Below, one piece after another: positions 44,106 to 61,638 of a stretch of 64,000 nucleotides of DNA. The translations under genes were made by a program, and so were the position numbers. The stretch lies in the NCBI RefSeq assembly GCF_000302595.1, contig NZ_JH947128.1:124001-188000 (forward strand), written 5' to 3'. Every line of letters begins with the position of its first letter. Positions within the stretch are counted from its first letter, which is position 1. Origin of the DNA: Pedobacter arcticus A12 (GTDB lineage Bacteria > Bacteroidota > Bacteroidia > Sphingobacteriales > Sphingobacteriaceae). Below the pieces are notes generated by a model that worked only from the letters and a program-made list of their open reading frames with translations, was not told the origin of the DNA and searched no databases.

Positions 44106-44842
44106 TTTGTACCTCCGTTTAAAATTTCTGCAAGGTGTATAATTTTAACATTGCTTTTTTGTCTTTTCAGAATCCCTTCCATATGCATCAAGCATGACAT
44201 ATCTACACCTGTAATATATTCCGCTTCATGCTGGATATGATCTGCTACCCTATCCTGCCCCATTTTTACGGATACTGCTTCTTCGGCAACGCAAAATGTG
44301 CCCCCAAACCCACAGCATTCATCAACCCTGCCTAAATGGATAATTTCAATATCCTTTACCATATTTAGTAGTTGGGCAGGTTTAGAAAAATCGGGTGCAT
44401 TTAATTCACTCATTTGCGCCAATTTTAAACCCCGCAATCCGTGGCAACTTTGGTGCATGCCCACTTTATGCGGAAAGCTTGCATTGAGTTCTTTCACTTT
44501 TAAAATATCGGTTAAAAAACTGATGAGCTCATAAGTGGTTTCTCTAATTTTTTTCGCTTCCTCCGGATCATCTTCATCGTGGAGATGCTCTCGGATATGC
44601 AACACACAGCTTCCAGAAGGCGCAACAATATAATCGTAACCTTTAAAGTTGTTTACAAAGTTTCTATCACAGCCACCCGTTAAATGCTCAAAACCAGAGT
44701 TCGCCATGGGTTGGCCACAACAGGTTTGGTTTTTAGGGTAGCTTACCTCGCACCCGTATTTCTCTAATAACTCCAAAGTAGCTATTGCCACATTAGGATA
44801 AAATTGATCTACATAACAAGGGATAAATAATGCGACTTTCAT
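44102..44842 (-). CDS. lutA: lactate utilisation protein A
   Basis: A 246-residue protein with two CCG (cysteine-rich) domains, QTCCGQPMANSG and DECCGFGGTFC, the usual layout of LutA/GlcF-type subunits. ATG 44842 (MKVALFIPCYVDQFYPNV) is the family start; an ATG 21 codons earlier overlaps the upstream dehydrogenase gene. The cysteine-rich domains bind an iron-sulfur cluster and pass electrons in L-lactate oxidation. It lies 13 bases after the dehydrogenase gene. Confidence 0.95.
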   Translation of the reverse strand: MKVALFIPCYVDQFYPNVAIATLELLEKYGCEVSYPKNQTCCGQPMANSGFEHLTGGCDRNFVNNFKGYDYIVAPSGSCVLHIREHLHDEDDPEEAKKIRETTYELISFLTDILKVKELNASFPHKVGMHQSCHGLRGLKLAQMSELNAPDFSKPAQLLNMVKDIEIIHLGRVDECCGFGGTFCVAEEAVSVKMGQDRVADHIQHEAEYITGVDMSCLMHMEGILKRQKSNVKIIHLAEILNGGTK

Positions 44843-44855
44843 TTTCTTATAGGGT

Positions 44856-45644
44856 TTACGCGTTGGCCAAAGCTCGGTCCAAATGTACATAACCACCGTC
44901 AACATGTAAAATTTGACCTGTGGTGTGGCTTGATTTATTACTTAGCAAAAATGCAACCGTATTTCCTATCTCTTCAATCGTAGTCATTCGGTTTTCTAAC
45001 GGAATGTTTGCCGTGATTTTTGCTAAAATCTCTTCCGGATTATCTAGTGTTTTAATCCAGTTTTCGTACTGTGGTGTCCAGCATTCGGCAACAACCAAAG
45101 CATTTACTCTGATACCGTACTTCAGCAATTCAACCGCCCATTCTCTGGTTAAGGCATTTCTACCACCGTTTGATGCGGCATAAGCGGAGGTGTTTCCTTG
45201 CCCGGTTTCTCCGGTTTTGGAAGAAATATTAACAATATTTCCTTTTGATTTAATCAGTTCGGGCAAAGCATGATGCGCCATTAAATAATAATGAATTAGG
45301 TTACGATGTAGGCTTAATACAAAATCCTCATAGTTTCCGTTCTGTAAACCAACGCCATCATTTAAACCTGCATTGTTTACCAAACCGTCAATTTTCCCGA
45401 ACTGCGCTATCGCTTTTTTTACTGCGTTTTCGCATGCTTCGGGGCTGGTTAATTCGGCTTCGATACCAAAAGCTTTACCCCCTGTTTCGGTAATTAAATC
45501 AATTGCCTTTTGGTTATCAGCTTGTTTTCTCCCAATAATTACTGCAATTGCACCTTCTTTAGCTACGGTTTCTGCTATCCCGAAACCGATACCTTTGGCA
45601 CCGCCAGTGATTAAAATAACCTTATCCTTTAAGTTTAAATCCAT
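44856..45644 (-). CDS. SDR-family sugar dehydrogenase, candidate L-fucose dehydrogenase
   Basis: A 262-residue short-chain dehydrogenase from ATG 45644 (MDLNLKDKVILITGGAKGIG). The NAD(P)-binding motif TGGAKGIG and NNAG (LVNNAGLND) are intact. The active-site strand is NIVNISSKTGE, and the Tyr motif reads YAASN: Tyr155 is present but the usual Lys four residues later is Asn159. By context it oxidises the free 6-deoxyhexose to its lactone, the first step of the pathway. It follows the lactonase gene by four bases. The missing lysine makes the catalytic details uncertain. Confidence 0.82.
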   Translation of the reverse strand: MDLNLKDKVILITGGAKGIGFGIAETVAKEGAIAVIIGRKQADNQKAIDLITETGGKAFGIEAELTSPEACENAVKKAIAQFGKIDGLVNNAGLNDGVGLQNGNYEDFVLSLHRNLIHYYLMAHHALPELIKSKGNIVNISSKTGETGQGNTSAYAASNGGRNALTREWAVELLKYGIRVNALVVAECWTPQYENWIKTLDNPEEILAKITANIPLENRMTTIEEIGNTVAFLLSNKSSHTTGQILHVDGGYVHLDRALANA

Positions 45645-45648
45645 TATT

Positions 45649-46479
45649 TTACAATTTATAGCATTTGATAGCGTTCGAGCTCCAGAATTTCTCTTGCTCA
45701 TTTAAAGATAAATTACTCACCTGTTGCGCTACAACACGCATCACTTTTTGATAATTGCCGGCAAGGTTACATACCGGCCAATCTGAACCAAACATTACCC
45801 TATCCATACCGAATGCAGAAAAAACCACATCCATATAAGGTATAAAGTCTGGGTAACTCCAATTATTCCAATCGGCTTCTGTAATCATTCCCGACACTTT
45901 GCAGTGCACATTTTCATGCTTTGCCAAAGCGGTTATAGCTGTTTTCCATTGATTAATTTCACCTGATTTTATCGCTGGTTTTGCCAAATGATCCAATACG
46001 AAAACCTGATTTGGAAACTGGTTTACCAACTGCTCTGCGTATTTCAATTGATCGGGAAACACTAAAAGTTCATAAACAAAGTCGTAGGCATTCATCGCTA
46101 CAATACCTCTGATAAACTCTTTGCTCAAAATCAGATCTCTTTGCGCTTTATCCTGAAGGATATACCTAAAGCCCTTAATGGTTTTAAAATCGTTATAGTA
46201 GGCTAACCTGTCAGAAATATCCGCACTTAAAAAATCTACCCAACCAATTATCCCTTTGATAAAATCGTTTTCTTTGGCTAATGCTAACAAGAATTCATTC
46301 TCGCCCTCATCCTCGTCTGTTTGCACTGCAATACAACCGTTTACATCTGCATTTTTTAGCACTGGCTGTAAATCAAGTGGCATAAAATCCTTTTGGATTA
46401 CCGCCATTTCCTGATTTATCCAAGCATGCTTAACGGGATTGTATTTCCAAAAATGCTGATGCGTATCAAGCTTTAGCAT
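45649..46479 (-). CDS. amidohydrolase-family lactonase, candidate L-fucono-lactonase
   Basis: A 276-residue amidohydrolase-2 (COG3618-like) protein from ATG 46479 (MLKLDTHQHFWKY). Motifs are the metal-type THQHFW at the start, HAWINQEM, VLDHLAKPAIKSGEI and MFGSDWPVCNL with the catalytic-type Asp. This group includes L-fuconolactonase and L-rhamnono-lactonase, which open the sugar lactone to the aldonate. It overlaps the FAA hydrolase gene by 14 bases, and the next gene starts after four bases, so it is embedded in the operon. Confidence 0.88.
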   Translation of the reverse strand: MLKLDTHQHFWKYNPVKHAWINQEMAVIQKDFMPLDLQPVLKNADVNGCIAVQTDEDEGENEFLLALAKENDFIKGIIGWVDFLSADISDRLAYYNDFKTIKGFRYILQDKAQRDLILSKEFIRGIVAMNAYDFVYELLVFPDQLKYAEQLVNQFPNQVFVLDHLAKPAIKSGEINQWKTAITALAKHENVHCKVSGMITEADWNNWSYPDFIPYMDVVFSAFGMDRVMFGSDWPVCNLAGNYQKVMRVVAQQVSNLSLNEQEKFWSSNAIKCYKL

Positions 46480-47323
46480 AAGGTACAACCGTTTGTTTCG
46501 CTTCTCCCAAACCGTCTATTCCTAATTCAATTACATCACCCGCTTTTAAATAAAGTGGTGGATTAAAGCCTAAACCAACCCCATGTGGAGTTCCGGTAGA
46601 GATTACATCGCCAGGTAAAAGCGTCATAAATTCGCTGAGGTAAGACACAACATGAGCGATATCAAAGATAAAATCATCGGTATTACCGTCTTGCATCATT
46701 TTATCATTCAGTTTTAACCAAAGACGTAGATTATTTGGATCGGCAATCTCATCTTTTGTAACCAACCACGGGCCAAGTGGCGCAAAAGTATCGCAACCTT
46801 TCCCTTTAGCCCATTGTCCGCCACGTTCCAATTGGAAAGCCCGCTCGCTTACGTCGTTATGTAAAACATACCCTGCAACATAATCCAAAGCTTCTTCTTT
46901 AGAAACATAGCTCGCTTTTTTACCAATTACAAAAGCCAATTCTACTTCCCAATCTGTTTTTACAGAATCTTTTGGGAGCATGATGTTATCATTTGGCCCT
47001 ACAACAGATGTGGTAGATTTAAAAAAGATAATAGGTTCTTTAGGGATTGGCGCATTGGTTTCTTGTGCGTGTTTTGCATAATTTAAACCGATACAAACTA
47101 TTTTTGAAGGACGACCGATTGGTGACCCTAATCTTTCTGTATCTGAAACTGCCGGGAGACTTGCTTTATTTTTTTCAACAAAAGATGCTAATCTATTGAT
47201 GCCATCTGTTTCGAAAAATTTTTCATCATAATCTTCCCCAAAAGCAGAGGTATCGTACTTTTTACCGTCGATTACTACTCCTGTTTTCTCTTGTCCTAAT
47301 GCTCCGTATCTTATTAGTTTCAT
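46466..47323 (-). CDS. fumarylacetoacetate hydrolase-family protein, candidate 2,4-diketo-3-deoxy-fuconate hydrolase
   Basis: A 285-residue FAH-fold protein. The core is KIVCIGLNYAKHAQETNAP, then FFKSTTSVVGPNDNI, a metal-binding DWEVELAFVIGKK and ending STGTPHGVGLGFNPP. FAH-like hydrolases cleave beta-diketo acids; in non-phosphorylative deoxysugar pathways they split the 2,4-diketo-3-deoxy acid into pyruvate and L-lactate. The LutABC genes downstream support that product. It starts 119 bases after the second dehydrogenase gene; the spacer holds short ACTTAATACTTA-like oligomers only. Confidence 0.88.
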   Translation of the reverse strand: MKLIRYGALGQEKTGVVIDGKKYDTSAFGEDYDEKFFETDGINRLASFVEKNKASLPAVSDTERLGSPIGRPSKIVCIGLNYAKHAQETNAPIPKEPIIFFKSTTSVVGPNDNIMLPKDSVKTDWEVELAFVIGKKASYVSKEEALDYVAGYVLHNDVSERAFQLERGGQWAKGKGCDTFAPLGPWLVTKDEIADPNNLRLWLKLNDKMMQDGNTDDFIFDIAHVVSYLSEFMTLLPGDVISTGTPHGVGLGFNPPLYLKAGDVIELGIDGLGEAKQTVVPYAKA

Positions 47324-47443
47324 ATTGCTTTTTATTTAATGATTGAATTTTGAATGAGAGAATTTTTGAATATTCTAAACCATTTCATTCATAGTTTGTT
47401 CTTTCTACTTGTTACTTAATACTTAAAACCTACTACCTAGGAC

Positions 47444-48205
47444 TTAATTATTCAATTTAATAAATCCACCATCAATCGGGTAATCATTACCAGTAATAAA
47501 GCCGGCTTCATCAGAACAAAGATAAAGCGCTAATGCGGCAATTTCTTCTGGCTTTGCCATACGCCCAATGGGCTGACTTTTAGATAGTTTTTCAAACATT
47601 TCCTCCTGATTATCAGGATAGCTTTTCGCGATAAAACCATCAACAAACGGCGTATGTACCCTTGCTGGGGAAATACTATTGCTCCGGATACCATCTGTAA
47701 TAAAATCGCGGGCTACGGACATGCTCATCGCATAAATTGCGCCTTTACTCATTGAATAAGCAAAACGATCTGCAATACCCACTACGGAAGCAATAGAGGC
47801 CATATTTAAGACTGCACCACCTCCCGATTTTTTCATCAAAGGAATAGCTGCGTATAAACAATTGTAGGCCCCTTTAACATTCACTTGGTAAACTTTTTCA
47901 AAATCTGCTTCCGCAGTTTTCTCTAAATTTCCAATGTGTGCAATGCCCGCATTATTCACCAAAATATCTACTTTACCTATTTTGCTAAATGTTGCCAAAA
48001 CTTGATCTTGCTTGCTTACATCGCATGAAAATGCTTGAGCTTCGCCAAATTGATTAATCTCTGCTACGGCTTGTTTTGCAGATTGCTCATTTAATTCTAA
48101 AATATAGACTTTTGCTCCTTGTTTTGCAAACAATACCGCTATTGCCTTGCCAATTCCGCTACCGCCACCTGTAATTACTGCTGATTTTCCTTTTAAACTA
48201 AACAC
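47444..48205 (-). CDS. SDR-family dehydrogenase, candidate 2-keto-3-deoxy-L-fuconate dehydrogenase
   Basis: A 253-residue classical short-chain dehydrogenase with TGGGSGIGKA near the N-terminus, NNAG (ILVNNAGIAH), Ser in NMASIAS, and an intact YSMSK catalytic motif. PIGRMAKPEEIAALALYLC and IDGG at the end are typical. In the proposed pathway it oxidises the 4-hydroxyl of the 2-keto-3-deoxy acid, just before FAH cleavage. The alternative is that this enzyme, with a complete catalytic set, performs the first sugar oxidation. Confidence 0.88.
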   Translation of the reverse strand: MFSLKGKSAVITGGGSGIGKAIAVLFAKQGAKVYILELNEQSAKQAVAEINQFGEAQAFSCDVSKQDQVLATFSKIGKVDILVNNAGIAHIGNLEKTAEADFEKVYQVNVKGAYNCLYAAIPLMKKSGGGAVLNMASIASVVGIADRFAYSMSKGAIYAMSMSVARDFITDGIRSNSISPARVHTPFVDGFIAKSYPDNQEEMFEKLSKSQPIGRMAKPEEIAALALYLCSDEAGFITGNDYPIDGGFIKLNN

Positions 48206-48254
48206 AATATTTCTTTTATTTTGGATTTAAAATTCAATTATTTTAAGAAATCCC

Positions 48255-48344
48255 GTCACCTCGAGGAAACGAGAGGTCTCACAAGCAAGATATGCTCACA
48301 TAATGGCTACCTGTTTGTGAGATGTCTCCTATCGTCGACATGAC
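48255..48344. repeat. large imperfect inverted repeat
   Basis: Two 30-base arms (48255-48284 and 48315-48344), about 70% complementary, start GTCACCTCGAGG and end GTCGACATGAC. They form a hairpin in the 183-base gap between the dehydratase and dehydrogenase genes. The GTCA...TCGA...TGAC outline resembles dispersed intergenic palindromes common in this phylum. Confidence 0.7.
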
Positions 48345-48388
48345 GAAATCGCTTCAGTTTATGTATTTTCATCTTTTTAAATATTCAA

Positions 48389-50032
48389 TTATAAACTGAC
48401 ACCTCTTTTCCAAGGGATAAAATCATCCTGGTTTAGCGCAACTGCTTTTGGGATAACTTCGCCACTTGCAACCTTGATACAGAACTCTAAAATCTCCTCT
48501 CCCATTTGGGCGATTGATTTTTCACCTCTAATAATGGCTCCTGTATCAATATCGATAATATCGGACATACGATTTGCTAATTCGGTATTCGTGGCCACTT
48601 TAATAACGGGACAAACGGGGTTTCCGGTTGGCGTACCTAAACCAGTTGTAAATAAAATCAAGTTAGCGCCACTAGCTGCTTTACCTGTGGTTGCTTCTAC
48701 ATCGTTTCCTGGAGTACAAACCAAACTTAAACCGGGTTTCACGGCTTGTTCCGTATAATCCAGCACATCAACTACCGGAGAAGTACCTCCCTTTTTTGCA
48801 GCACCGGTACTTTTAATGGCATCTGTAATTAAACCGTCTTTAATATTACCTGGCGAAGGATTCATGAAAAAGCCAGAACCTACAGCATGTGCCTGTGCAT
48901 CATAGGTTCGCATTAAATGGATAAACTTCTCTGCTGTTTCTTTACTTTCACAACGGTCTATCATATTCTGCTCTGCGCCACATAATTCTGGAAACTCTGC
49001 CAATAAAACCTTTCCGCCTAAAGTGACCAGCAAATCTGCAGTATAACCTACTGCAGGATTGGCTGATATCCCACTAAAGCCATCACTGCCACCACATTTT
49101 ACACCTACGGTTAGGTGCTTTAAGGAAGCTGGCTTTCGTTCAATTTTATTAATTTGTACTAAACCCTGTATGGTTTGCTGTATAGCGCCCTTAATTAAAG
49201 CCTCTTCGCTCTGCGTTTTTTGCTGTTCAAAAATCAGCATCGGTTTGTCAAAGTTTGGATGATATTTTTTGATATCTGCCAAAAAGTTGCTTACCTGCAA
49301 ATGCTGACATCCCAAACTTAAAAGTGTAACACCGGCAACATTTGGATGGTTTGCATAAGAAGCCAGCAATTTACCCAACATCTCAGAATCTTGCCTTGTT
49401 CCACCGCAACCTCCCTGATGGTTTAAAAACTTGATACCATCAACATTTTTGAAATATCGGTTTTGACGTGGTTCTTCTGATGGCGAAAAATCAACGTCAT
49501 TAATTGCCTTTCCATCTTTTAGGTTCTGCAGCAGCTGTTCCGAAAAAAGCTTGTATTTATCGGTTACGGCATAGCCCAATGTTTGGTATAAAGCTTCTTT
49601 GATCACATCCATGTTTCTGTTTTCACAGAACACGGTTGGTATAAAAAGCCAGTAATTGGCTGTTCCTACATTTCCGTCGTTTCTGTGATAACCATTAAAT
49701 GTGCGATTAGTAAATTTAGAAACGTCTGGCTTATGCCATTGATAATCTACTTCGCGGTAATCGTAGGGTTCTGCAGCATGTCTTGTATTTTCGGTAGTCA
49801 TCCGTTCACCGCTTTTAACAGCGTACTGCACTTTCCCCACCAAAACACCATACATTATAATCTCATCACCCGCTTCCATATCGTTGATAAAAACTTTATG
49901 TTTTGCCGGAATTTTATCTTTAATAATTACTGATGAACCTTGGAAAACGATATCCATTCCAGGCATTAAATCCTGCAAGGCAACCAATACATTATCTTTT
50001 TTATCGAGTTGTAAAATTAGATGTGCTGACAT
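48389..50032 (-). CDS. UxaA-family (altronate-type) sugar acid dehydratase
   Basis: A 547-residue protein with an N-terminal SAF domain (about 1-90, LPGMDIVFQGSSVIIKDKIP-like region) and a long UxaA/GarD dehydratase body. Hallmarks include GYHRNDGNVGTANYWLFIP, HQGGCGGTRQDSEML, GVKCGGSDGFSGISANPAVG and TTGLGTPTGNPVCPVIK. Known members dehydrate altronate or galactarate using iron. Here context points to L-fuconate or another 6-deoxy aldonate as substrate, giving the 2-keto-3-deoxy acid. The known fuconate dehydratases I recall belong to the enolase superfamily, so this would be a non-homologous replacement. It lies four bases after the mutarotase gene. Confidence 0.9.
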   Translation of the reverse strand: MSAHLILQLDKKDNVLVALQDLMPGMDIVFQGSSVIIKDKIPAKHKVFINDMEAGDEIIMYGVLVGKVQYAVKSGERMTTENTRHAAEPYDYREVDYQWHKPDVSKFTNRTFNGYHRNDGNVGTANYWLFIPTVFCENRNMDVIKEALYQTLGYAVTDKYKLFSEQLLQNLKDGKAINDVDFSPSEEPRQNRYFKNVDGIKFLNHQGGCGGTRQDSEMLGKLLASYANHPNVAGVTLLSLGCQHLQVSNFLADIKKYHPNFDKPMLIFEQQKTQSEEALIKGAIQQTIQGLVQINKIERKPASLKHLTVGVKCGGSDGFSGISANPAVGYTADLLVTLGGKVLLAEFPELCGAEQNMIDRCESKETAEKFIHLMRTYDAQAHAVGSGFFMNPSPGNIKDGLITDAIKSTGAAKKGGTSPVVDVLDYTEQAVKPGLSLVCTPGNDVEATTGKAASGANLILFTTGLGTPTGNPVCPVIKVATNTELANRMSDIIDIDTGAIIRGEKSIAQMGEEILEFCIKVASGEVIPKAVALNQDDFIPWKRGVSL

Positions 50033-50036
50033 TTTA

Positions 50037-50372
50037 TTATTGATTTAAATCAAATATTTTATTCATTAAAACCCATTTTTCACCGGGTTTTGCATAGCTC
50101 AAAGGTTCTTGAAACTCTAACATCAAGGCGTTCCATTCTTGTACTTTTTTATTGGATGATTCTAATGAGGCTTTCTTCTCGAAACTGAAAGATGTATCAA
50201 CCTCTATAATCATAAACAAGCGGGTGTTTATCCTATAAATCTGCATTTCTCTTATCCCACAAGAGATCATATTATGGATTACATGAGGCCAAACCTTTGC
50301 ATGCCAATCATCATAGGCTTTTATGCTCTCCGCATTATTTTTTAAATCGAGTGTTAAACAATGCCTGATCAT
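50037..50372 (-). CDS. L-rhamnose/L-fucose mutarotase (RhaM family), copy 1
   Basis: A 111-residue RhaM-like protein: MIRHCLTLDLKNNAESI, YDDWHAKVWPHVIHNMI with the catalytic-type His, MQIYRINTRLFMIIEVD and the ending KWVLMNKIFDLNQ. It is clearly paralogous to 41770-42114 (same length and same KWVLM-IF ending). It overlaps the permease gene by four bases, which suits immediate anomer conversion of the imported sugar. Confidence 0.93.
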   Translation of the reverse strand: MIRHCLTLDLKNNAESIKAYDDWHAKVWPHVIHNMISCGIREMQIYRINTRLFMIIEVDTSFSFEKKASLESSNKKVQEWNALMLEFQEPLSYAKPGEKWVLMNKIFDLNQ

Positions 50373-51622
50373 AAACTAGCTTTTAAAGGTTTTACCTTAT
50401 GACCGAAAAGACCGAAACAAAGGATAACAACGAAACATACCAAAGGCACAATATAACCGTACTGGATATTGTGGTAAATATCACTAATATGACCAAAAAC
50501 AGGAGGTAATAAAGCGCCTCCAACAATTGACATAATGATTAAACTACTGCCAAACTTTGTATCGGCACCTAAATCTTTGATACCCAAAGAAAATATGGTT
50601 GGAAACATTACCGACATAAAGAAAGCCGTTGTTATAACCACAAATATTGCAAGCATGCCTCCAGCAAACATGGCAACAACACTCAGCAACACGCAGATCA
50701 ATGCATATATGCTCAATAACTTTACTGGGCTTATATATCGCATAAAAAATGTACCTACGAACCGCCCAATCATAAATGCCATACCCACGCCAAAGCCTGC
50801 GTAACTGGCAGCTTCAAGTTCGGTAATTCCGGCAGCTTCTGTAGCATAAAGAATAAAAAAACTAAACACACATACCTGCGCACCCACGTAAAAAAACTGA
50901 GAAGCAATTGCCCACCTTAGATGACTGTGCCTTAATGCACTAGAAATACTTACGCCAGTTGATGATTCTTCCTTTATTTGAGGGAGTTTGATGAACCAAA
51001 ATATGATGGCAACTACTAAAATAACGGAACCTAAAATTAAGTAAGGAAGCTTAACTGATGAAGCCTCGGTAGCTAAAGCTATTGCCCTAGCTTGTGGCTC
51101 CATACTTTGCAAAATTGCCTCGGGTACACCTTCTGTGAGAATAATTTTAGCGCCAATAATAGGAGCAATTGTAGCGGCCAAACCATTGAACGACTGCGCT
51201 AAATTTAATCGCTGTACGGCAGTTTCTGGATCACCCAATAGAGATGCGAAAGGGTTCGCCGCTGTTTCTAGAATTGTTAATCCACAAGCAATCACGAACA
51301 GGGCTACCAAAAAGAAACCATACGATTGTGTATTTGCAGACGGAATAAAAAGATAGGAACCTATTGCAAAAAACAACAGCCCGACGATGATACCCGCCTT
51401 GTAACCGTATTTTCTCATAATCAATCCGGCCGGAAGTGCCATCACAAAATAGGCTATAAACACAGCAGAGTCTACCAACGATGCTTGTAATGTGGTTAAG
51501 CTAAATGCTTTTTTTAAATGAGGAATTAGAATTGGATCAAGATTGTGCACAAATCCCCATAAAAAGAATAGCGACGTGATCATTACAAAGGCGAACTTTG
51601 TAGAACTTTTAGAATTGGTCAT
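50369..51622 (-). CDS. fucP: FucP-type MFS sugar permease
   Basis: A 417-residue major facilitator with 12 predicted helices, of the fucose/glucose/galactose porter group (FucP/GluP). Signatures are FFLWGFVHNLDPILIPHLKK, DSAVFIAYFVMALPAGLIM, and GLTILETAANPFASLLGDPE. In E. coli FucP the residues in the HNLDPILIP-like region and the ETAANP loop are part of the L-fucose/H+ symporter. First gene of the cluster; it is divergent from the IclR regulator with a palindrome between. The substrate is probably L-fucose, but GluP-like hexose transport is possible. Confidence 0.88.
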   Translation of the reverse strand: MTNSKSSTKFAFVMITSLFFLWGFVHNLDPILIPHLKKAFSLTTLQASLVDSAVFIAYFVMALPAGLIMRKYGYKAGIIVGLLFFAIGSYLFIPSANTQSYGFFLVALFVIACGLTILETAANPFASLLGDPETAVQRLNLAQSFNGLAATIAPIIGAKIILTEGVPEAILQSMEPQARAIALATEASSVKLPYLILGSVILVVAIIFWFIKLPQIKEESSTGVSISSALRHSHLRWAIASQFFYVGAQVCVFSFFILYATEAAGITELEAASYAGFGVGMAFMIGRFVGTFFMRYISPVKLLSIYALICVLLSVVAMFAGGMLAIFVVITTAFFMSVMFPTIFSLGIKDLGADTKFGSSLIIMSIVGGALLPPVFGHISDIYHNIQYGYIVPLVCFVVILCFGLFGHKVKPLKASL

Positions 51623-51726: not shown

Positions 51727-52452
51727 ATGATACAAGTTATAAACCGCTCGATAGACATTTTAGAATACGTTGCACAAGAGGTAAATAAACCTAAACTAAT
51801 GGGGAATATTGCCCAGGATTTAAACTTGAACACTAGCACCTGCGCTAATATTATAAAAACCTTGGTAAGCCGTGGTTTGTTAAAAAGGGCCGAGGATGAA
51901 AAGGGATATCTAATAGGTTCACGGTTGCTCGAAATCAGCAACGGGAGTTTAGGTTTCAGCGATTTGATAGAACGGACAAACCATCTGTTCGTTGACAAAC
52001 CCAAAGCATTTGATGAAAATTGCCTGATAGCCATTTTAAAAGATGATAAACGCCAGGTCATTTTTAACAAACCGAGCTCACAGCTCATACAAGCTACTAC
52101 CCCGACAGAAAAAACAGCTTATGATTCATCTACAGGAAGACTGCTGATTGCTTTTTTAGAAGAGAAAGACTTACTGCTTTATATCAAAAAATACGGCTTA
52201 CCCAATAAAAACACCTGGCCTAAAGCAACATCAAGAATTGGTTTGTTTGAGGAAATCAAAAGAATAAAAAACCAGGGATATGCCCTGATTGAAGATAGTG
52301 TGCAGGTGGTAGGCGTTGCAACGCCAATTTATAAGGGCAAAAAAGTGATTGCCAGTTTTAGTATTTATTTACCGTCGTTTAGGTTTAATAACTCGGTTAG
52401 AGAAGACATTGTAAAACTGGCATTGGAGACATCGGAAAAGCTAGCTGAATAG
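51727..52452 (+). CDS. IclR-family transcriptional regulator
   Basis: A 241-residue regulator. The N-terminal winged helix-turn-helix is seen as VINRSIDILEYVAQEVNKPK and DLNLNTSTCANIIKTLVSRG. The C-terminal IclR effector domain includes TAYDSSTGRLLIAFLEEKD, QGYALIEDSVQVVGVATPIY and ASFSIYLPSFRF. It is divergent from fucP (104 bases between start codons), so it most likely controls the deoxysugar catabolic run in response to a pathway acid or sugar. Repressor or activator cannot be told. Confidence 0.92.
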   Translation: MIQVINRSIDILEYVAQEVNKPKLMGNIAQDLNLNTSTCANIIKTLVSRGLLKRAEDEKGYLIGSRLLEISNGSLGFSDLIERTNHLFVDKPKAFDENCLIAILKDDKRQVIFNKPSSQLIQATTPTEKTAYDSSTGRLLIAFLEEKDLLLYIKKYGLPNKNTWPKATSRIGLFEEIKRIKNQGYALIEDSVQVVGVATPIYKGKKVIASFSIYLPSFRFNNSVREDIVKLALETSEKLAE

Positions 52453-53366: not shown

Positions 53367-54239
53367 ATGAAACCTGTTTTAATGCGCCATACCGAAATAG
53401 TTGAGCAATCTTTTAAAGTTTGGGAAAACAGCAATCCGTATATACACAATCCTTGGCATTACCATCCAGAGTGTGAGATAACTTATATTGAAAATGCCCA
53501 AGGAACCTTGATTATTGGAGATAAGGCAATTGATTATACGAGTGACTCATTAATTTTTATCGGTTCAAATTTACCTCATGAATTTAGAGGCATAAACAAG
53601 GAAACACCAGATCTTAAATCAAAATCATACTCCGTACATTTTCAGAAAAATTTTCCGGGTAAGGATTTCTACAAAATGCCTGAACTTGCAGTAATTAATC
53701 AATTATTCGATATTTCTGCCAGAGGGATTAAGATACATGACCAAAAAAGCAAAGACTTAGCAAAGAAATATCTTCTTAAACTTTTCAAATCTGAGGGCGT
53801 AGAAAGAGTTGGCCATTTATTAAAACTATTAAATATCATCTCACTCTCTCCAAAATTAGAAATCCTCTCGAGTCAAATATTTGGACAATCACCAGAATTA
53901 CCACAAAATCAAAGGATTAACCAGGTTTGCAAATATGTTATGGACAATTTCAGAAATGAAATTACCATAGAACAATTGGTAACACATTTTCACATGACCC
54001 CAACTTCCTTTTCCAGATTTTTTAAAAAAAGGACTAATAAATCTTTCACACAATATGTAAACGAGATTAGAATTGGTTATGCCTGCAAACTGATGTTCCA
54101 AGAAAACTTTAGCATCTCGCAAATCGCATTTGAATGCGGGTTCGGGAATTTATCTAACTTTAATCAACAGTTTAAAAAAATTAAGCTAATAACTCCTTCT
54201 CAATTTATAGCTCAACTTTCTAAAAAGGATGTATTATAG
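53367..54239 (+). CDS. AraC-family transcriptional regulator
   Basis: A 290-residue regulator with an N-terminal cupin sensor domain (NPWHYHPECEITYIENAQGT, then DSLIFIGSNLPHEF) and two C-terminal AraC helix-turn-helix motifs: IEQLVTHFHMTPTSFSRFFK and FSISQIAFECGFGNLSNFNQ. It is convergent with the BNR gene at 54390 and lies nearest the sugar-acid and glycosidase genes of region 7, which it may control. The inducer is unknown. Confidence 0.93.
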   Translation: MKPVLMRHTEIVEQSFKVWENSNPYIHNPWHYHPECEITYIENAQGTLIIGDKAIDYTSDSLIFIGSNLPHEFRGINKETPDLKSKSYSVHFQKNFPGKDFYKMPELAVINQLFDISARGIKIHDQKSKDLAKKYLLKLFKSEGVERVGHLLKLLNIISLSPKLEILSSQIFGQSPELPQNQRINQVCKYVMDNFRNEITIEQLVTHFHMTPTSFSRFFKKRTNKSFTQYVNEIRIGYACKLMFQENFSISQIAFECGFGNLSNFNQQFKKIKLITPSQFIAQLSKKDVL

Positions 54240-54389: not shown

Positions 54390-56153
54390 TTATTGAGTTA
54401 CTTCGCCACCTACTTTTATATAACTTAGTGTGGCAAGTTGATTATCTGTGACGGCCCCACCCCAAAGATACAGTCGGAATATTATTGCTTTATCAGCCGA
54501 TATCTTCTGAAGGTCTTTTAAACCAGAAAGATATAAAACAGACTTCGGGTCTGCCTGGCTTTCTATTGGGAAATCGTAATTTGTGATATCCACAAAATTA
54601 TTACCTCCATCTACACTGTAACTCCATTTGCATTTTTTAGACCTATCATTAGTAACCTCTTTTATTTCATAATCCAAACTAGTGACTGAAAGTTTTGTGT
54701 TTTTTTGTGAGTGAAGCTGGAACTGAATATACTGATTGTTCTCCCTAGCTTTAGTACGACTTTTTGTTGGCTTATTGGCTTTAAAACTAAGTCCTTTAGT
54801 TCCGTTTACAAACGTAAGCCCATCTCCAAAAACTAATTCAGAAACTTCCAGGTTTTTATTGACGATTATTGGTCTAGTACGCTCATTTTTATCAAAACTC
54901 CAATAAGCAATTTCTTTCGTTTTTGTTATTGCGAGTAAATCTTTAGGCGAGTCTTCCACTTTCTTATTCCTGAAGTTTTCTATCCGATGAAAAGTAATCA
55001 TATTAGCATCATGGTACCTTGCCCCATACCACGATGTACGACTTACAGCAACAATATCATCACCTTCAATCAGCCAATCTGCGTATTGAAAACCGAAGAC
55101 ATCCCATGTTTTAATTTGATAGCCTTCATTCCAACGCAATATTTTGTATTGCATTTCCCAATTTTTTAAATCTTTTGATGAGTAAAGGCATAAAACATTT
55201 CTTTGGTGCCAATTGCCATTGTAGGTTTCCAAGCCATTTTGAAAAGTAGAAATTTTGTTCACAATAGTCCAATATTTACCCGATACCTTATCATAACGGA
55301 TGGTAAACTTTGACTCTGCACCAGGGAAATGGACGTACTCGGCCGGCTTATTATTAAAAGTCACTACCTTTCCATCATTGCTAATGCTGATTATTGCTGC
55401 TACTTCATTTCTGGGGATACCGGTAGCCGAACCTTCTAAACTATAGTTGCCTTTTTCCCCTTGCCAGCTATCCATACGCATAAAATCTACCAAGTCTCCA
55501 TTTGGGGTAACCACTATATTACCCTCAAACCAATTTGGTCTTTTGGCATTTATCCATGTTTCATCAAAACGAATACTATTAGACCTAGTCCAGCTAGATG
55601 CTTTTAATAAATCTGCACCTACTGGCGCAGAAATAACAAGCGCATGAAAATCTCTATGCTTACTATCGTCAACTATTTCCTCAAACGCTCGCCATATTCT
55701 GCCTTTATGAACCACCACTGGAACAGGTGCTGTATGGTATTTCCCTTTAAAAATAACTCCCGAATTTTCATCTTTTGAAGCAGTCCAGGTATAGCCACCA
55801 TCATTAGATTTATGTATGATAATGTCACCAAATGAATTGGATATACCCATTAAATACAAACTACCTTCATTTACAAATAAACCTGCCCAATGCCCTACCA
55901 AAACTTTAGTGATAAATTTCCAGGTTTTTCCTTTGTCCTCAGACCTATATATTCCCGAACCTTTTGGCATATCATGCGATACAACGTAGGTACCGTCTGG
56001 AAGAATAGCAATACTTGGCGATGCTGCTCTAACTTTTAAAGGATCGGGGCTTTGATAGATTACTGTACCGGGGAAAACCGGTTGCGCCTTAACATCAAAG
56101 TTTACTAAAAAAAATACAAATAGTAGCGAAATACCTTTAATAAGTCTTCTCAT
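54390..56153 (-). CDS. sialidase-like BNR/Asp-box exo-glycosidase with C-terminal module
   Basis: A 587-residue secreted protein (signal peptide ending DVKAQ). Residues about 25-415 form a sialidase-type beta-propeller with Asp boxes SEDKGKTW and SNDGGYTW. From about 425 the chain carries a separate beta-sandwich-like module (AYWSFDKN, WSYSVDGGNNFVDIT, IIFRLYLWGGA) that also makes up most of the two following proteins. True sialidase activity is not shown; propellers of this kind also occur in rhamnosidases and lyases. No lipobox is present. The gene is the last of the minus-strand run in region 7. Confidence 0.8.
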   Translation of the reverse strand: MRRLIKGISLLFVFFLVNFDVKAQPVFPGTVIYQSPDPLKVRAASPSIAILPDGTYVVSHDMPKGSGIYRSEDKGKTWKFITKVLVGHWAGLFVNEGSLYLMGISNSFGDIIIHKSNDGGYTWTASKDENSGVIFKGKYHTAPVPVVVHKGRIWRAFEEIVDDSKHRDFHALVISAPVGADLLKASSWTRSNSIRFDETWINAKRPNWFEGNIVVTPNGDLVDFMRMDSWQGEKGNYSLEGSATGIPRNEVAAIISISNDGKVVTFNNKPAEYVHFPGAESKFTIRYDKVSGKYWTIVNKISTFQNGLETYNGNWHQRNVLCLYSSKDLKNWEMQYKILRWNEGYQIKTWDVFGFQYADWLIEGDDIVAVSRTSWYGARYHDANMITFHRIENFRNKKVEDSPKDLLAITKTKEIAYWSFDKNERTRPIIVNKNLEVSELVFGDGLTFVNGTKGLSFKANKPTKSRTKARENNQYIQFQLHSQKNTKLSVTSLDYEIKEVTNDRSKKCKWSYSVDGGNNFVDITNYDFPIESQADPKSVLYLSGLKDLQKISADKAIIFRLYLWGGAVTDNQLATLSYIKVGGEVTQ

Positions 56154-56222
56154 TGTTCTGAATTAAAGTTTGATTACCTGTTTATTAAAATATCATAAAT
56201 AGCTATTAAAACAAGTATTTGC

Positions 56223-57992
56223 TTACCAAATAAATTTAGTGATCAATGCTTTTTTATTGTTCGTTAGTTTAGCTACATAGATGCCTTTGCTATTCCCTAA
56301 AAAAGAAATTTTAAAACTATTGTTAGCACTGCCGTTTAAATCAACATGCTGTTTATAAACAATACGACCGTTAACATCACTTATCTGAAGCAGTCCCTTT
56401 CCACTTACCTCACCCTGCACACTTAGTTCAATAGAATTGTCATTTTGATAAGCTCTCATCTCAGCATTAGCGTTTATGCTATTGTTTATTGAGATAATTT
56501 TAGAGTCTTCGTACTTTCCGTCTCGATCTACCTGGCGCAACTGATAGTAATTTACCCCAGCTAATGGCTCATAATCAAACAAACTGTAATTATTAACGGT
56601 TGTTGCGTTACCTGCCCCGCTAACTGTACCCACTAAAATATTCGGTTTTACATTTGATGATCTGTAAACTTCGAAGTGAGAATTATTTTTCTCGGAAACG
56701 GTTTTCCAAGATAATTTGATTCCATTAAGTTCTTTTTTAGCAGTGAACGATGTTAATGTTACGGGTAAAGTCCCCATATCCTCTACCGTTCCGTAAGTAC
56801 TTAAACTACTTTCACCAGCAACTAAATTTCTACCTAAACCAAACACAGAGGTAATATCGGTTGCTCCCCATAAATAAATCCTAAATTCTACATTATTAAC
56901 ATCAGTTAGATTTTGTAAATCTACTATAGTACTTACATCCATATCTGCTAATACAGTACCATCATCTGTTGCACTTATTACTCCATTAGCCCCTGGAACT
57001 AATGTAACTGCCCCGCCGTCTTTCACGTAAGCAAGCTGGTAATTATTGGCACCAGTTGCTTTTCTACGGTACTTAAAATTAAGTGCACTAACGTTTATTT
57101 TAACATCTATTTTGGGCTGCAAATTAAAACTGTAATATTCGTTATTATTAGATGCATCAATATAAGAAGCACTTAGGTTTTTAGAGGTAGCAACAAATCC
57201 TCGGGATAAACTACTTAACTCCAACCCCGGCCCGCGTGTTAATGTAGAGGCATTGAGTGCCGGACTTAAAGCAGTAACACCAAAACTAGCTGTGCTACTT
57301 GGCGCACTATACAAACTCCACTCTAAAAGTAAAGGCTTATTGGTGACATTTGCCATTAGAGATAAAACCTCCCGCTCTGAAGTATTACTTTTTCCAAATC
57401 CAAACCCACTATTGCCTCCGCTAACACTGGCGCCCCAAGCGTATATTCTAAAATAAACCGTTTTCCCAGGCGCAATTGACTGCAGCGCTAAGATATTGGA
57501 AACATCTTCTGATCTATCTTCTCCCTGCGTATCTGTTAGCCCAATACTATTGTCTGTACTACCAATTTCTTTAAAAGCACTCTCCGCTAGGTCATCTATA
57601 CTATATTTCCATCTATAGTTTGTCACAGATTGAGCAGTTGCTGTCCTTAACCTAGCATTTATTGTAGTAAAAGACATATACTTCCCCGCTTCTGCGGTGA
57701 CTGCAAGCTGATAATAAGACCCAGCAGTATAAGCTTGTGCTTTAGTTTCACCGTTTGTAAAATTAGCAACGTAAGAATAAGTTGAATTGCTGGCGTAGAT
57801 AATACCTGGCCCACGACTTAAAGTTACTGCATTAATATCTGCTGTTTTAAAATTAGCTGAGATAGGATTATCTTGCCCTGCTAGCAATACCGTTGTAGCT
57901 TGATAAAAAGAAGCGATTTTGGTCTGTGAAAAACCATTTACACTAAACATCAGCAGTAGTGATGCGAAAAAAACAAAGTAACTTTTTTTCAT
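56223..57992 (-). CDS. T9SS-secreted protein with two repeated modules
   Basis: A 589-residue protein with a signal peptide (ending NGFSQ). Two copies of the region-7 module occupy about 22-215 (LSRGPG, YRWKYSIDD, FRIYAWGAS, FGFGKS) and 216-405 (LTRGPG, YYSFNL, FRIYLWGAT, FGLGRN). They are followed by a fibronectin-like stretch (LPVTLTSFTAKKELNGIKLS) and a type A T9SS C-terminal sorting domain ending KGIYVAKLTNNKKALITKFI-type text. It is expected to be exported and attached to the cell surface. No catalytic motif is seen, so glycan binding or adhesion is more likely than catalysis. Confidence 0.8.
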   Translation of the reverse strand: MKKSYFVFFASLLLMFSVNGFSQTKIASFYQATTVLLAGQDNPISANFKTADINAVTLSRGPGIIYASNSTYSYVANFTNGETKAQAYTAGSYYQLAVTAEAGKYMSFTTINARLRTATAQSVTNYRWKYSIDDLAESAFKEIGSTDNSIGLTDTQGEDRSEDVSNILALQSIAPGKTVYFRIYAWGASVSGGNSGFGFGKSNTSEREVLSLMANVTNKPLLLEWSLYSAPSSTASFGVTALSPALNASTLTRGPGLELSSLSRGFVATSKNLSASYIDASNNNEYYSFNLQPKIDVKINVSALNFKYRRKATGANNYQLAYVKDGGAVTLVPGANGVISATDDGTVLADMDVSTIVDLQNLTDVNNVEFRIYLWGATDITSVFGLGRNLVAGESSLSTYGTVEDMGTLPVTLTSFTAKKELNGIKLSWKTVSEKNNSHFEVYRSSNVKPNILVGTVSGAGNATTVNNYSLFDYEPLAGVNYYQLRQVDRDGKYEDSKIISINNSINANAEMRAYQNDNSIELSVQGEVSGKGLLQISDVNGRIVYKQHVDLNGSANNSFKISFLGNSKGIYVAKLTNNKKALITKFIW

Positions 57993-58163
57993 AATATTTA
58001 TTTTAAATTTTAATAATTAATTGATTTTATATACTACTTGCAGGCTAATTTTCCGATAATAATTAAGACTTCAGGTTGTGCTAAATAGCAACCAACGTAA
58101 GGTTTTTGGTTTTTTTTTAAATCTATTCGTTTTTAAACACCCTATAACAAACTACGTAGCCAA

Positions 58164-58823
58164 CTAATTTACTGGACTTACCAAGCCTTTAACGGCTAGT
58201 ACATTGCTTCCTTTCATATTTGATTTTCCAAAACCAAAAGATCTTTGGTCGCCTGTATTAGCAGTAGCTCCCCAAGTGTAAATTCGAATAGTAATTATTT
58301 TTGATGATGACACATCTTGCAATTCTTTATACTGAGCCAGACTAACTGAGGGTTGTTTCGCACCGTTATTGTTGAGATCTTCTACAGTAATATCTGCTTT
58401 GCCAATTTCTGTAAAATCTTGACCGTCCAAACTGTACATCCAACGGTAAACGTATGGCGATTGCAACTGTCTTCTCAGCACCGCATCAATAGATGTTAAC
58501 GAAACCTTAAATCCTTTTTTAGCCTGCACAGTAAATTGATAGTATGCATTTGATTTCTTGGATTCTTCTTTTGTTGTATTTACTGGAAAAGTAGCACTAA
58601 ATCCCCTCGTATTTCCTTGCTTTTTCGGATCCGCTGCTGCTCCTCTTGTTAATACAGATTGCTCTAAGTTAGGATCAATCGTAGTTGCTTTTGCTGTAAC
58701 ATCTTGCCCTTTTGATGGCTCAGGCAAAGAAAATTGCCACGCAGCCACTTGGCTATAACCCGCCGAACTTATCAGCGTAAATAAGCCTATCATAAATGCT
58801 TTACCAAAATTTATCTTTTTCAT
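58164..58823 (-). CDS. secreted single-module protein
   Basis: A 219-residue protein from ATG 58823 (MKKINFGKAFMIGLFTLISS). An ATG 19 codons upstream is open but would bury the signal peptide. After the signal (ending GYSQ) the whole chain is one copy of the module shared with its neighbours: VAAWQFSLP, SVLTRGAA, YYQFTVQ, YRWMYSLDGQDFTEIG, TIRIYTWGAT and FGFGKSN. It has no T9SS sorting domain and no lipobox, so it may stay in the periplasm or depend on a partner. Function unknown; carbohydrate binding is a guess from context. Confidence 0.75.
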   Translation of the reverse strand: MKKINFGKAFMIGLFTLISSAGYSQVAAWQFSLPEPSKGQDVTAKATTIDPNLEQSVLTRGAAADPKKQGNTRGFSATFPVNTTKEESKKSNAYYQFTVQAKKGFKVSLTSIDAVLRRQLQSPYVYRWMYSLDGQDFTEIGKADITVEDLNNNGAKQPSVSLAQYKELQDVSSSKIITIRIYTWGATANTGDQRSFGFGKSNMKGSNVLAVKGLVSPVN

Positions 58824-60316: not shown

Positions 60317-61606
60317 TTACTTTAAGGGTTTTAGGGTCTGCTTTTTTGTAAGTAGATAAATGATAAGCCAAGCAAATAGATAAGTAAAGCCGCAGATGGT
60401 AAATAATAGGTTATAGCCTCCTGCTAAGTTTCCCTGCATCTTATAGCTATCTAATAAGTAACCAATCAATATTGGAAAAAGGATTCCACCTAAGGCACCT
60501 GCCATACCCCCTATACCCACAACAGAGCTTACCGTTTCTTTTGGAAACATATCTGAAGCAAGTGTAAATATATTTGTAGCCCAGGCTTGGTGTACTGCAA
60601 CGGCCAAACTTATCAATCCTACGGCAACCCAAATATCTGTTGCAAATTGAGCCAGTATAATAGAGATTTCTAACACTGCAAATATGAGTAAAGCAATACG
60701 TCTGGCTTTTAAAGTAGGCAAACCTCTTTTTATTAACCATGATGAAAAATAACCGCCCCCTATACTACCTACCGTGGTTGCCGCATAAATAAGCATTAAT
60801 TGCGGGCTTGGTTTAGTGAGGTCGAGATTAAATGTTGATGAGAAATAGGAAGGCAACCAGAATAAGAAAAACCAGTAGATAGGATCTATTAACAGCTTAC
60901 CAGTAATAAATGCCCAGGTTTGAGGCATTGAGAATAGGCTTGACCATTTTATCTTTTCTCCAGCTATTTCTTGGCTAGTAGCATTTTCATTTTGATCATT
61001 CTGTATTAAATTTAATTCCTCGGCAGTTATTCTTTTTTGTTTCGATGGAATTTCATAAAGTACCAACCAAAAAATCAACCACACAAAACCTAAAGCTCCA
61101 GTAATCCAAAATACTTCTTGCCAGCCATGATGGGCTAATATCCAGGGCACAACAAAAAGAGCAACTACAACACCAACACTTGTTCCAGCATTAAAAATCC
61201 CGGTTGCAATGGCTCTTTCTTTTTTTGGAAACCATTCTGCCACTGCTTTCATTGCAGCAGGGAAATTACCCGCTTCGCCAACTCCCAAACCTACTCTCGC
61301 CAAGCCAAAGCCAAAAGCACTCCTGGCAACAGCATGCAACATGCCAGCAACACTCCAAAATACTACAGAAATAGAGTATCCTATTTTTGTACCCACTTTA
61401 TCTATTATTCTACCAAAAACCAAAAGTCCAATGGCATAAGCTGCGGTAAAGGCCATCACAATGTGTGCAAAATCTGTTTCTGACCAATCGAACTCTTTTT
61501 CGAGCGTAGGTTTTAGTAGCCCAATAATCTGGCGATCCATATAATTGATAGTTGTAGCAATAAATAATAGCGCAACTACAATCCATCGATAATTTCTTAT
61601 TTTCAT
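60317..61606 (-). CDS. MFS transporter of the hexuronate (ExuT-like) family
   Basis: A 429-residue permease with 12 predicted helices. ATG 61606 (MKIRNYRWIVVALLFIATT) is preferred over an ATG three codons earlier. The anion:cation symporter group is shown by INYMDRQIIGLLKPTLEKEF, GRIIDKVGTKIGYSISVVFW, GEAGNFPAAMKAVAEWFPKK and FNAGTSVGVVVA. ExuT-like members carry hexuronates or aldonates into the cytoplasm. That suits the ketodeoxy-sugar kinase and aldolase encoded just upstream. It starts 33 bases after the aldolase gene. Confidence 0.9.
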   Translation of the reverse strand: MKIRNYRWIVVALLFIATTINYMDRQIIGLLKPTLEKEFDWSETDFAHIVMAFTAAYAIGLLVFGRIIDKVGTKIGYSISVVFWSVAGMLHAVARSAFGFGLARVGLGVGEAGNFPAAMKAVAEWFPKKERAIATGIFNAGTSVGVVVALFVVPWILAHHGWQEVFWITGALGFVWLIFWLVLYEIPSKQKRITAEELNLIQNDQNENATSQEIAGEKIKWSSLFSMPQTWAFITGKLLIDPIYWFFLFWLPSYFSSTFNLDLTKPSPQLMLIYAATTVGSIGGGYFSSWLIKRGLPTLKARRIALLIFAVLEISIILAQFATDIWVAVGLISLAVAVHQAWATNIFTLASDMFPKETVSSVVGIGGMAGALGGILFPILIGYLLDSYKMQGNLAGGYNLLFTICGFTYLFAWLIIYLLTKKQTLKPLK

Positions 61607-61638
61607 ATTGAACATCTGGTATCTTGATTAATGAGAAA

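Follow-up and report, generated by a model that had tools for sequence, protein, structure and literature searches.

The described counterparts of the proteins considered here include the sialidases of glycoside hydrolase family 33 (GH33) from Bacteroidota, such as NanH of Tannerella. PMC9472817 describes their carbohydrate-binding module (CBM), CBM93, as an N-terminal domain with a novel antiparallel fold, and presents the FRIP motif, which includes a catalytic arginine, as common in bacterial sialidases. The DNA analysed here, called the window below, is a stretch of 64,000 nucleotides of Pedobacter arcticus A12 (positions 124001-188000 of contig C4, NZ_JH947128.1, in a 4.23-Mb genome). Three adjacent minus-strand genes of the window (54390-58823) carry four copies of a module of about 185 residues, one of which is the tail of a protein with a sialidase-fold (BNR) propeller. 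On balance we favour the view that this module is an uncatalogued CBM-type jelly roll, which serves as a common accessory domain of one class of polysaccharide utilization loci (PUL) in this genome and in some of its relatives. The three genes and their parts are the following:

54390-56153 (-): BNR protein of 587 aa, with a Sec signal, a sialidase-fold propeller and a module tail; no sorting domain of the type IX secretion system (T9SS) found
54954-56081 (-): propeller part of the BNR protein, about residues 25-400; two Asp-boxes, fold closest to sialidases, RIP absent
54393-54911 (-): module copy 1, C-terminal tail of the BNR protein, residues 418-572; profile match of 160 bits, divergent
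56223-57992 (-): tandem two-module T9SS protein of 589 aa
56775-57329 (-): module copy 2, the second copy of the tandem protein, residues 225-403 by iterated profile
57336-57890 (-): module copy 3, the first copy of the tandem protein, residues 38-216 by iterated profile
56229-56450 (-): T9SS type A sorting domain of the tandem protein, residues 515-588; TIGR04183, 31.2 bits (cut-off 23)
58164-58823 (-): stand-alone single-module protein of 219 aa, with a Sec signal; lipobox not flagged, T9SS domain not found
58170-58751 (-): module copy 4, almost all of the mature stand-alone protein, residues 47-234 of the long open reading frame (ORF)

The first-pass annotation of the window had claimed four module copies in three adjacent genes, and both the gene positions and a genome-wide search bear this out. 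When the stand-alone protein is compared with the whole genome, the other three window copies are found with E-values of 1.5e-20, 3.5e-13 and 5.4e-13 (they are 32, 26 and 26% identical to it), and the similarity is therefore not due to chance. These values, together with the confident AlphaFold2 model described below, rule out chance similarity or a low-complexity linker. The conserved pattern of the module is LxRGxG, YSxDG and FRLYAWG. The landmarks proposed in the annotation vary between the copies: the tail of the BNR protein has LVFGDG where the other copies have LxRGxG and lacks the FGFGKS segment, and YQLAYVKDG replaces Y-W-YSxDG in the second tandem copy. The T9SS sorting domain of the tandem protein, also claimed at that stage, is confirmed by the TIGR04183 match listed above and comes up again in the genome scan. 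The likely start of the stand-alone protein is the ATG at 58823, the program-called ORF beginning upstream, at a TTG (58880).

The AlphaFold2 model of the stand-alone module, computed on 85 copies, has a predicted local distance difference test score (pLDDT) of 96.8 and a predicted template modelling score (pTM) of 0.92. The predicted module is a β jelly roll, nearly all-β, with one short helix. The copy at the end of the BNR protein, predicted within the whole protein (pLDDT of 69.5 for the whole model), has the same strand order, mostly with high confidence. The annotation had proposed a structure prediction of each copy and a comparison with CBMs; for two of the four window copies, the stand-alone one and the BNR tail, the predictions agree on one CBM-like fold.

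Among the best 50 structures listed by VIA-align (Z 8.2-9.7, 5-13% identity), about 32 are CBMs or CBM-bearing enzymes according to their titles; on this scale, models without clear relatives typically give Z 7-8. The top match is the CBM4 3k4z (Z 9.7, root mean square deviation (rmsd) 3.5, 142 aligned residues), and further matches include CBM22 (4xup, Z 9.1), CBM15 (1gny, Z 8.9), CBM6 (2cdp, Z 8.7), CBM29 (1wcu, Z 8.7) and CBM35. The VIA matches listed belong mostly to CBM families other than CBM32, which is the first match of Foldseek, at a low TM of 0.33. A CBM32 of B. thetaiotaomicron is also the best match of a profile search against the PDB (E 0.011). The F5_F8_type_C family (PF00754) matches 14 of the 85 copies weakly (best E 0.00069), and its gathering score is not reached (the module region in locus L022 scores 19.1 bits, for a cut-off of 28.2).

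In the scans of the window proteins and of the 85 copies, the module reaches the cut-off of no Pfam family, PF14873 (BNR_assoc_N) is absent from the 16 families that match any of these copies at E 0.1, and no NCBIfam family was found for it in the scanned proteins of the same genome. According to the model, the module would be a separately folding, non-catalytic domain with a CBM-type β-sandwich, and it also exists as a lone protein. Two kinds of putative carbohydrate-active enzymes end in the module: BNR proteins with the sialidase fold, within a PUL, and a SASA-like esterase in locus L084. For a possible binding site, mapped from the sequence and the predicted strands, the conserved residues of interest are R36, Y70, R93, R156, Y158 and W160. 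This predicted, uncatalogued CBM-type β jelly roll is a good candidate for a new CBM family.

The extent of the module in the genome is larger than the four copies first claimed. All 17 genome matches of the stand-alone query lie within C4 178444-236220, in 12 exported proteins; they define a 58-kb block which starts in the window. The 12 proteins include three stand-alone proteins, three tandem proteins and three BNR proteins with a module tail; the others are one with a BNR part (recognised by profile), three modules and a T9SS tail, a DUF5689 lipoprotein with a module, and one that starts with a module and ends in a T9SS tail. A profile built from the 17 copies and run genome-wide adds a single distant copy (C3 960123, E 4.2e-10). 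T9SS tails are matched 52 times in the genome, and so the confinement of the module to one block does not come from a scarcity of exported proteins.

The block has the composition of a PUL. Two of the 37 SusC genes of the genome that exceed the TIGR04056 cut-off lie in it (C4 210928 and 226109), and each is paired with a SusD (PF12771 at 209535 and PF14322 at 225423, respectively). Both pairs are past the end of the window, within the module block, where SusC/SusD pairs are accompanied by exported glycan-active genes, the arrangement by which a PUL is recognised. The block also encodes a DUF5017 protein, a DUF5689 protein, a SASA-type esterase and several sialidase-fold (BNR) proteins.

Some details of the block and of the distant copy can be recorded here. 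The module tail of a 597-aa BNR protein (L011:6568-7080) has a direct repeat of 13 residues (TLRCYIVGGSKTG twice) at the most conserved strand. A small gene beside the block (L012:6100-6546) resembles, by eye, a transposase of the IS200/IS605 type. A domain resembling the formylglycine-generating enzyme (FGE) is joined to a BNR_2 propeller in one protein (L010:5952-7997), and relatives of this fusion occupy like positions in L016, L017, L018, L032 and L041. The distant C3 copy belongs to a 687-aa protein (L119:6998-9061) whose end looks, by eye, fused to an unrelated lipoprotein-like start.

The module is also found in other genomes: it is matched in 15 of 18 genomes of the genus (E 0.001) and in 35 of 251 genomes of the family, which represent 7 of 25 genera (E 1e-10). 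The scan of genome contigs gives 65 module loci, 30 of them core and 35 more distant. Outside the home genome, genes were labelled by BLAST to the proteins of the latter, and T9SS domains were searched in the home genome. The annotation was also right to note similar unnamed segments in T9SS proteins.

Two types of loci recur, and comparable sets of genes are present in other Sphingobacteriaceae and, in part, in Alistipes and a Bacteroidales genome. In type 1, the order is SusC, SusD, DUF5689 with a module, single-module protein, tandem protein and BNR_2 with a module; it is observed in the home genome, L016 and L017. Type 1 loci also encode a fusion of an FGE-sulfatase-like domain with a BNR_2 propeller. 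Among the variants, L018 has no tandem gene, and the loci of Alistipes (L032) and of a member of Bacteroidales (L041) have the first part only. Type 2 loci contain SusC, SusD, DUF5017-type proteins, members of the BNR family of the window with or without modules, a stand-alone protein and a multi-module protein; they further hold FG-GAP proteins and SASA-like esterases, in combinations that vary. The link with glycans that the annotation had suggested is upheld in that the genes lie in a glycan-utilization region recurring in other genera.

Of 29 chosen module loci, 25 contain a SusC relative of at least 40% identity and 18 a BNR relative; among 20 control stretches taken from these genomes, each of the two is found once. 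The 29 loci consist of 13 from the scan of 65 and 16 from another set (four duplicates being left out), and the labels and BNR profiles used on them derive from these same loci. A SusC-like gene is present in 13 of the 30 core loci, namely in all but one of the 13 chosen ones and in 1 of the 17 others.

The partners of the module are not always those of these two types. Locus L097 (5408-13867) encodes two nuclease/phosphatase-domain proteins, one with four modules and one with a single module, beside a DUF5689 protein with a module and SusC/SusD; judging from these domains, the module also occurs in a phosphoesterase-type locus. In L084 (16940-19075), a 711-aa relative of the SASA esterase of the block ends in a module. 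Bins of Patescibacteria type also contain it (L034, L037, L039 and L040, with three copies each in the last three), and L037 adds InlB-like repeats and a peptidoglycan-binding domain; transfer or mis-binning is a possible explanation for these cases.

The history of the copies was reconstructed from a tree of 104 modules from 27 loci and the home block (the divergent L094 and L095 were left out). The 22 modules of six type 1 loci form one branch with a support of 91/98, just under the strict mark. Within this branch, the sub-branches of the BNR-tail, DUF5689 and tandem copies cross genera, while the stand-alone copies are basal and do not form one group. Along the tree, the locus-type label (type 1, type-1-like or rest, set by hand) switches only 3 times, whereas 200 shuffles, which ignore relatedness, give about 33 switches on average; the corresponding values are 26 against 63 for the architecture and 72 against 83 for the locus of origin.

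Tandem duplication within the window is rejected: a clade of the four window copies costs 122 log-likelihood units (p-AU, from the approximately unbiased test, 8.3e-8). Each of these copies sits in a branch of its own, together with copies from other genomes. The relationships between sequences thus point to a likely history of old duplication, partly inside one locus type, each copy having kept its place since.

Several points weigh against the favoured reading of a CBM-type accessory domain of one class of PUL. Copies outside such loci are common, many of them in unrelated proteins. At E 1e-10, 216 of the 251 family genomes have no module match. The choice of the 29 loci was made by hand, in favour of clear gene sets, and one genome contributes several of them. 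Among the 17 other core loci, SusC/SusD relatives are present only in L027 (several contigs are short), and the 35 distant loci contain neither a SusD relative nor a relative of SusC that reaches 40% (several of these contigs are short as well). Partners elsewhere include nuclease/phosphatase domains (L027) and Patescibacteria repeat proteins (L037). In the tree, 14 modules of the DUF5689-type loci L021, L096 and L097 fall outside the type 1 branch, and the statistics given above suffer from the disregard of relatedness in the shuffles. The structural scores are middling (TM of 0.22-0.41 among the Foldseek matches listed, VIA Z of 8.2-9.7), and the fold also has functions other than sugar binding (meprin, IFT25 and BcsB are among the same best 50 VIA structures). 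Finally, the stand-alone protein has no recognised surface signal.

An alternative that takes up part of these observations is that the module is a structural or stability domain, a generic β-sandwich accessory of exported Bacteroidota proteins which binds no sugar and has been spread by domain shuffling. The presence of the module in unrelated proteins and phyla, the 35 distant loci mentioned above and the distant copy in the 687-aa protein of the home genome fit this explanation. So does the fact that R156, Y158 and W160 are invariant even with the copies outside PUL-type loci included, as these residues may be structural. On the contrary, the 17 home copies are concentrated in one block despite the abundance of T9SS tails and SusC genes in the genome, and a module-only protein is kept in such loci across several genera, which is unexpected for a purely structural domain. 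We consider this alternative unlikely. The related idea, raised in the annotation, of a generic linker in unrelated proteins is partly right: the module does occur in nuclease/phosphatase and Patescibacteria proteins, but it matches a domain profile and is not a short linker.

Taken together, the genes around the module suggest no single ligand, and the signs point to different sugars. The genes next to the module genes of the window are the following:

53367-54239 (+): AraC-type regulator adjoining the module genes; PF12833, 73.6 bits
58960-60156 (-): second BNR protein, without module, 398 aa, upstream and in the same direction; PF13088, 82.9 bits (cut-off 31.4)
60317-61615 (-): transporter of the major facilitator superfamily (MFS), same direction; PF07690, 224.8 bits
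61639-62283 (-): family of 2-keto-3-deoxy-6-phosphogluconate (KDPG)/KHG aldolases; PF01081, 134.5 bits
62267-63280 (-): family of 2-keto-3-deoxygalactonokinases (KDGal kinases); PF05035, 189.6 bits

The KDPG aldolase and KDGal kinase families point toward 2-keto-3-deoxy acids. A kinase of the block is an L-ribulokinase (733 bits for a cut-off of 428), a sign toward L-arabinose, and a relative of Fucose_iso_C in the window or block is below its cut-off. On the other side of the module genes, a minus-strand cluster (42152-51622) contains LUD/LutB-like genes, an amidohydrolase, an FAA hydrolase, a short-chain dehydrogenase/reductase (SDR) and a member of the altronate/galactarate dehydratase family, together with a rhaM-type mutarotase and an MFS permease; an IclR-type gene follows (51727-52452, +). 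This deoxy-sugar-acid-type set, a sign toward a deoxy-hexose or sugar-acid pathway, looks like a non-phosphorylating pathway of the L-fucose type.

A further sign toward 2-keto-3-deoxy acids comes from relatives, in which genes of the dihydrodipicolinate synthase (DHDPS) family account for 6 of the 32 unlabelled neighbours scanned (out of 41 unlabelled ORFs; of the nine left out, one was scanned separately and the others lie near locus ends). When four of these neighbours are compared with NCBIfam, dapA is the best match of three, the fourth has no match at 1e-10, and no cut-off is passed. The two that were compared with solved structures match dihydrodipicolinate synthases. Pairs of genes of about 520 and 312 aa adjoin module loci in L014 (5163-7701), L080 (4035-6554), L083 (15615-18167) and L085 (4754-7366); the larger gene belongs to the sodium/solute symporter family (confirmed in L014) and the smaller one to the DHDPS family (confirmed in L014 and L080).

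Further along the contig, 15-28 kb beyond the last module copy, lies a sign toward sialic acid, a locus of the sialic acid type (L118:221-12217, which is C4 252221-264217, with L012:18050-19231). It contains SusC, SusD, a lyase closest to N-acetylneuraminate lyases, NanM, an MFS transporter, a GH33 protein with BNR_assoc_N, a GDSL protein with SASA, and a GlcNAc 2-epimerase. From its gene content it is apparently complete; nowhere in the genome is the cut-off for NanE (PF04131) passed.

The annotation had called the BNR protein sialidase-like, which holds for its fold only. Compared with sialidases, its propeller gives VIA Z values of 17.7-19.3, with rmsd of 3.3-4.1 Å over 247-274 residues in single-domain matches (residues 226-353 of the model have mostly low pLDDT). 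However, its score for BNR_2 (PF13088) is 23.8 bits, below the cut-off of 31.4, and a search with the pattern [FYVIL]RIP finds the RIP motif in none of the 28 BNR domains of the window family, a few of which are incomplete. FRIP is present, by comparison, in the GH33 protein that this genome encodes at a distance of about 74 kb (L118). Ten residues (H140, E158, E210, R226, D288, R318, D328, D359, R372 and H381) are conserved at 95% or more in the BNR family, a pattern that suggests an enzyme, although not a standard sialidase. Arabinanases are matched by the BNR part in a sequence search of solved structures (E 0.028-0.053), too weakly for a family assignment.

The same data bear on the possibility of a sialoglycan system, in which the BNR proteins would be sialidases and the module a CBM for sialic acid or sialoglycans, functionally like CBM40 or CBM93. 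The sialidase fold, the apparently complete sialic acid locus beyond the last module copy and the SASA-type esterase inside the block are in its favour. Nevertheless, the window family lacks RIP throughout whereas the neighbouring GH33 protein has FRIP, the latter carries BNR_assoc_N with no module match at its position, and the L-ribulokinase and the catabolic genes of the sugar-acid/deoxy-sugar type point to other sugars. We consider this possibility very improbable.

The location of the proteins can be partly predicted. The genome scan finds a T9SS sorting domain over the cut-off in 5 of the 12 home module proteins, one of which, a tandem protein of 593 aa, scores 22.5 in a direct scan for a cut-off of 23. 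A simple lipobox pattern is present in all six module-bearing DUF5689 proteins of about 437 aa, in the four module-bearing BNR proteins of type 1 and in four of the nine of type 2; it is not flagged in a 666-aa ORF of L097 with DUF5689 and a module, an ORF of uncertain start. The N-termini of the stand-alone proteins are of the Sec type. The lipobox pattern flags 2 of 18 of them, both unconvincing by eye, and TIGR04183 is not matched in the three stand-alone copies of the home genome. Since the stand-alone proteins have neither a T9SS domain (in the three home copies) nor a convincing lipobox, the T9SS tandem proteins, and possibly the lipoproteins, are the only ones whose signals indicate a place at the surface. 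By known routes, the stand-alone proteins would stay in the periplasm, which is the strongest argument against a scaffold bound wholly to the surface.

These predictions matter for the idea that the copies dock with each other or with a shared partner, forming a non-cellulosomal surface complex which recruits the BNR enzyme. The same module is indeed found on an enzyme, a lipoprotein, a tandem T9SS protein and a free protein of one locus, and its positions are kept across genera. Nothing that would complement it, as cohesin complements dockerin, was recognised among the proteins scanned, and the best 50 VIA structures listed are mostly sugar-binding modules. The free copy, moreover, lacks a recognised surface signal, and the BNR enzyme has a copy of its own, so that the scaffold recruiting the enzyme, as first imagined, is not supported. 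We regard docking as quite improbable.

Under the favoured reading, that of a CBM-type accessory domain shared by the proteins of a PUL, each module copy would bind the glycan of its locus, or a product of this glycan. At the cell surface, the polymer would be held by the copies of the T9SS tandem proteins and of the lipoproteins, and the copies borne by enzymes would keep the hydrolase on its substrate. The free single-module protein may bind released oligosaccharides in the periplasm, or outside the cell if some unknown route exports it, and import of the products would then fall to SusC/SusD. A bolder version, in which the module is a new CBM family acting as the same binder in every compartment (the tandem T9SS copies capturing outside, the DUF5689 lipoprotein copy at the SusC/SusD gate, others on enzymes), the free copy is a soluble periplasmic product carrier, and the BNR proteins form a new sialidase-fold glycoside hydrolase family without the FRIP arginine, is conceivable but doubtful.

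More than 100 copies of the module (104 in the tree, plus others) occur in Bacteroidota and a few other phyla. If it binds glycans, it would be a CBM-type family outside the Pfam and NCBIfam models searched, and many segments that now lack annotation would gain a function. An uncharacterised family of sialidase-fold enzymes is also suggested by the loci, as is a PUL class that keeps a free single-domain binder. If the module does not bind glycans, the case still explains a repeated pattern that escapes gene annotation.

In the open-access literature, no description of the module was found by title and start of abstract (weak evidence, as the domain is nameless), nor was a system in which a lipoprotein, tandem T9SS proteins, enzymes and a free protein, all from one locus, share a single module. 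Several known systems can nevertheless be compared with this one. The galactose-binding-like CBMs (CBM4, CBM22, CBM6, CBM29 and CBM32/F5_F8 type C) are similar in that the predicted jelly roll of the module aligns with them from its first to its last residues, and in that the module belongs to exported, partly sialidase-fold proteins. It differs from them by its identity of only 5-13%, its length of about 185 residues, its own conserved pattern and the lack of a Pfam family over the cut-off.

CBM93 (PF14873) of the Bacteroidota GH33 sialidases, including Tannerella NanH, is likewise an accessory domain of a sialidase-fold propeller, but no module copy matches PF14873, and the nearby GH33 protein of the home genome has PF14873 without the module. 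The sialidase of Micromonospora viridifaciens (1eut, 2bzd), which consists of a propeller and a galactose-binding CBM, has the same arrangement of parts as the BNR protein, with a chain match over about residues 25-585 (Z about 18); however, the two parts superpose poorly together (rmsd 11-13) and the BNR protein of the window has no RIP.

The lipoproteins of the SusE or surface glycan-binding protein (SGBP) type resemble the DUF5689 lipoprotein with a module, as an accessory domain is encoded directly after SusC/SusD. They differ in that no glycan role for DUF5689 was found in the literature. According to PMC8459023, a protein with DUF5689 and DUF5017 is needed for natural transformation in Riemerella. 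Overall, while the module family itself is without a library model, the system is made of parts of known kinds: a CBM-like jelly roll, a sialidase-fold propeller, a PUL and T9SS cargo.

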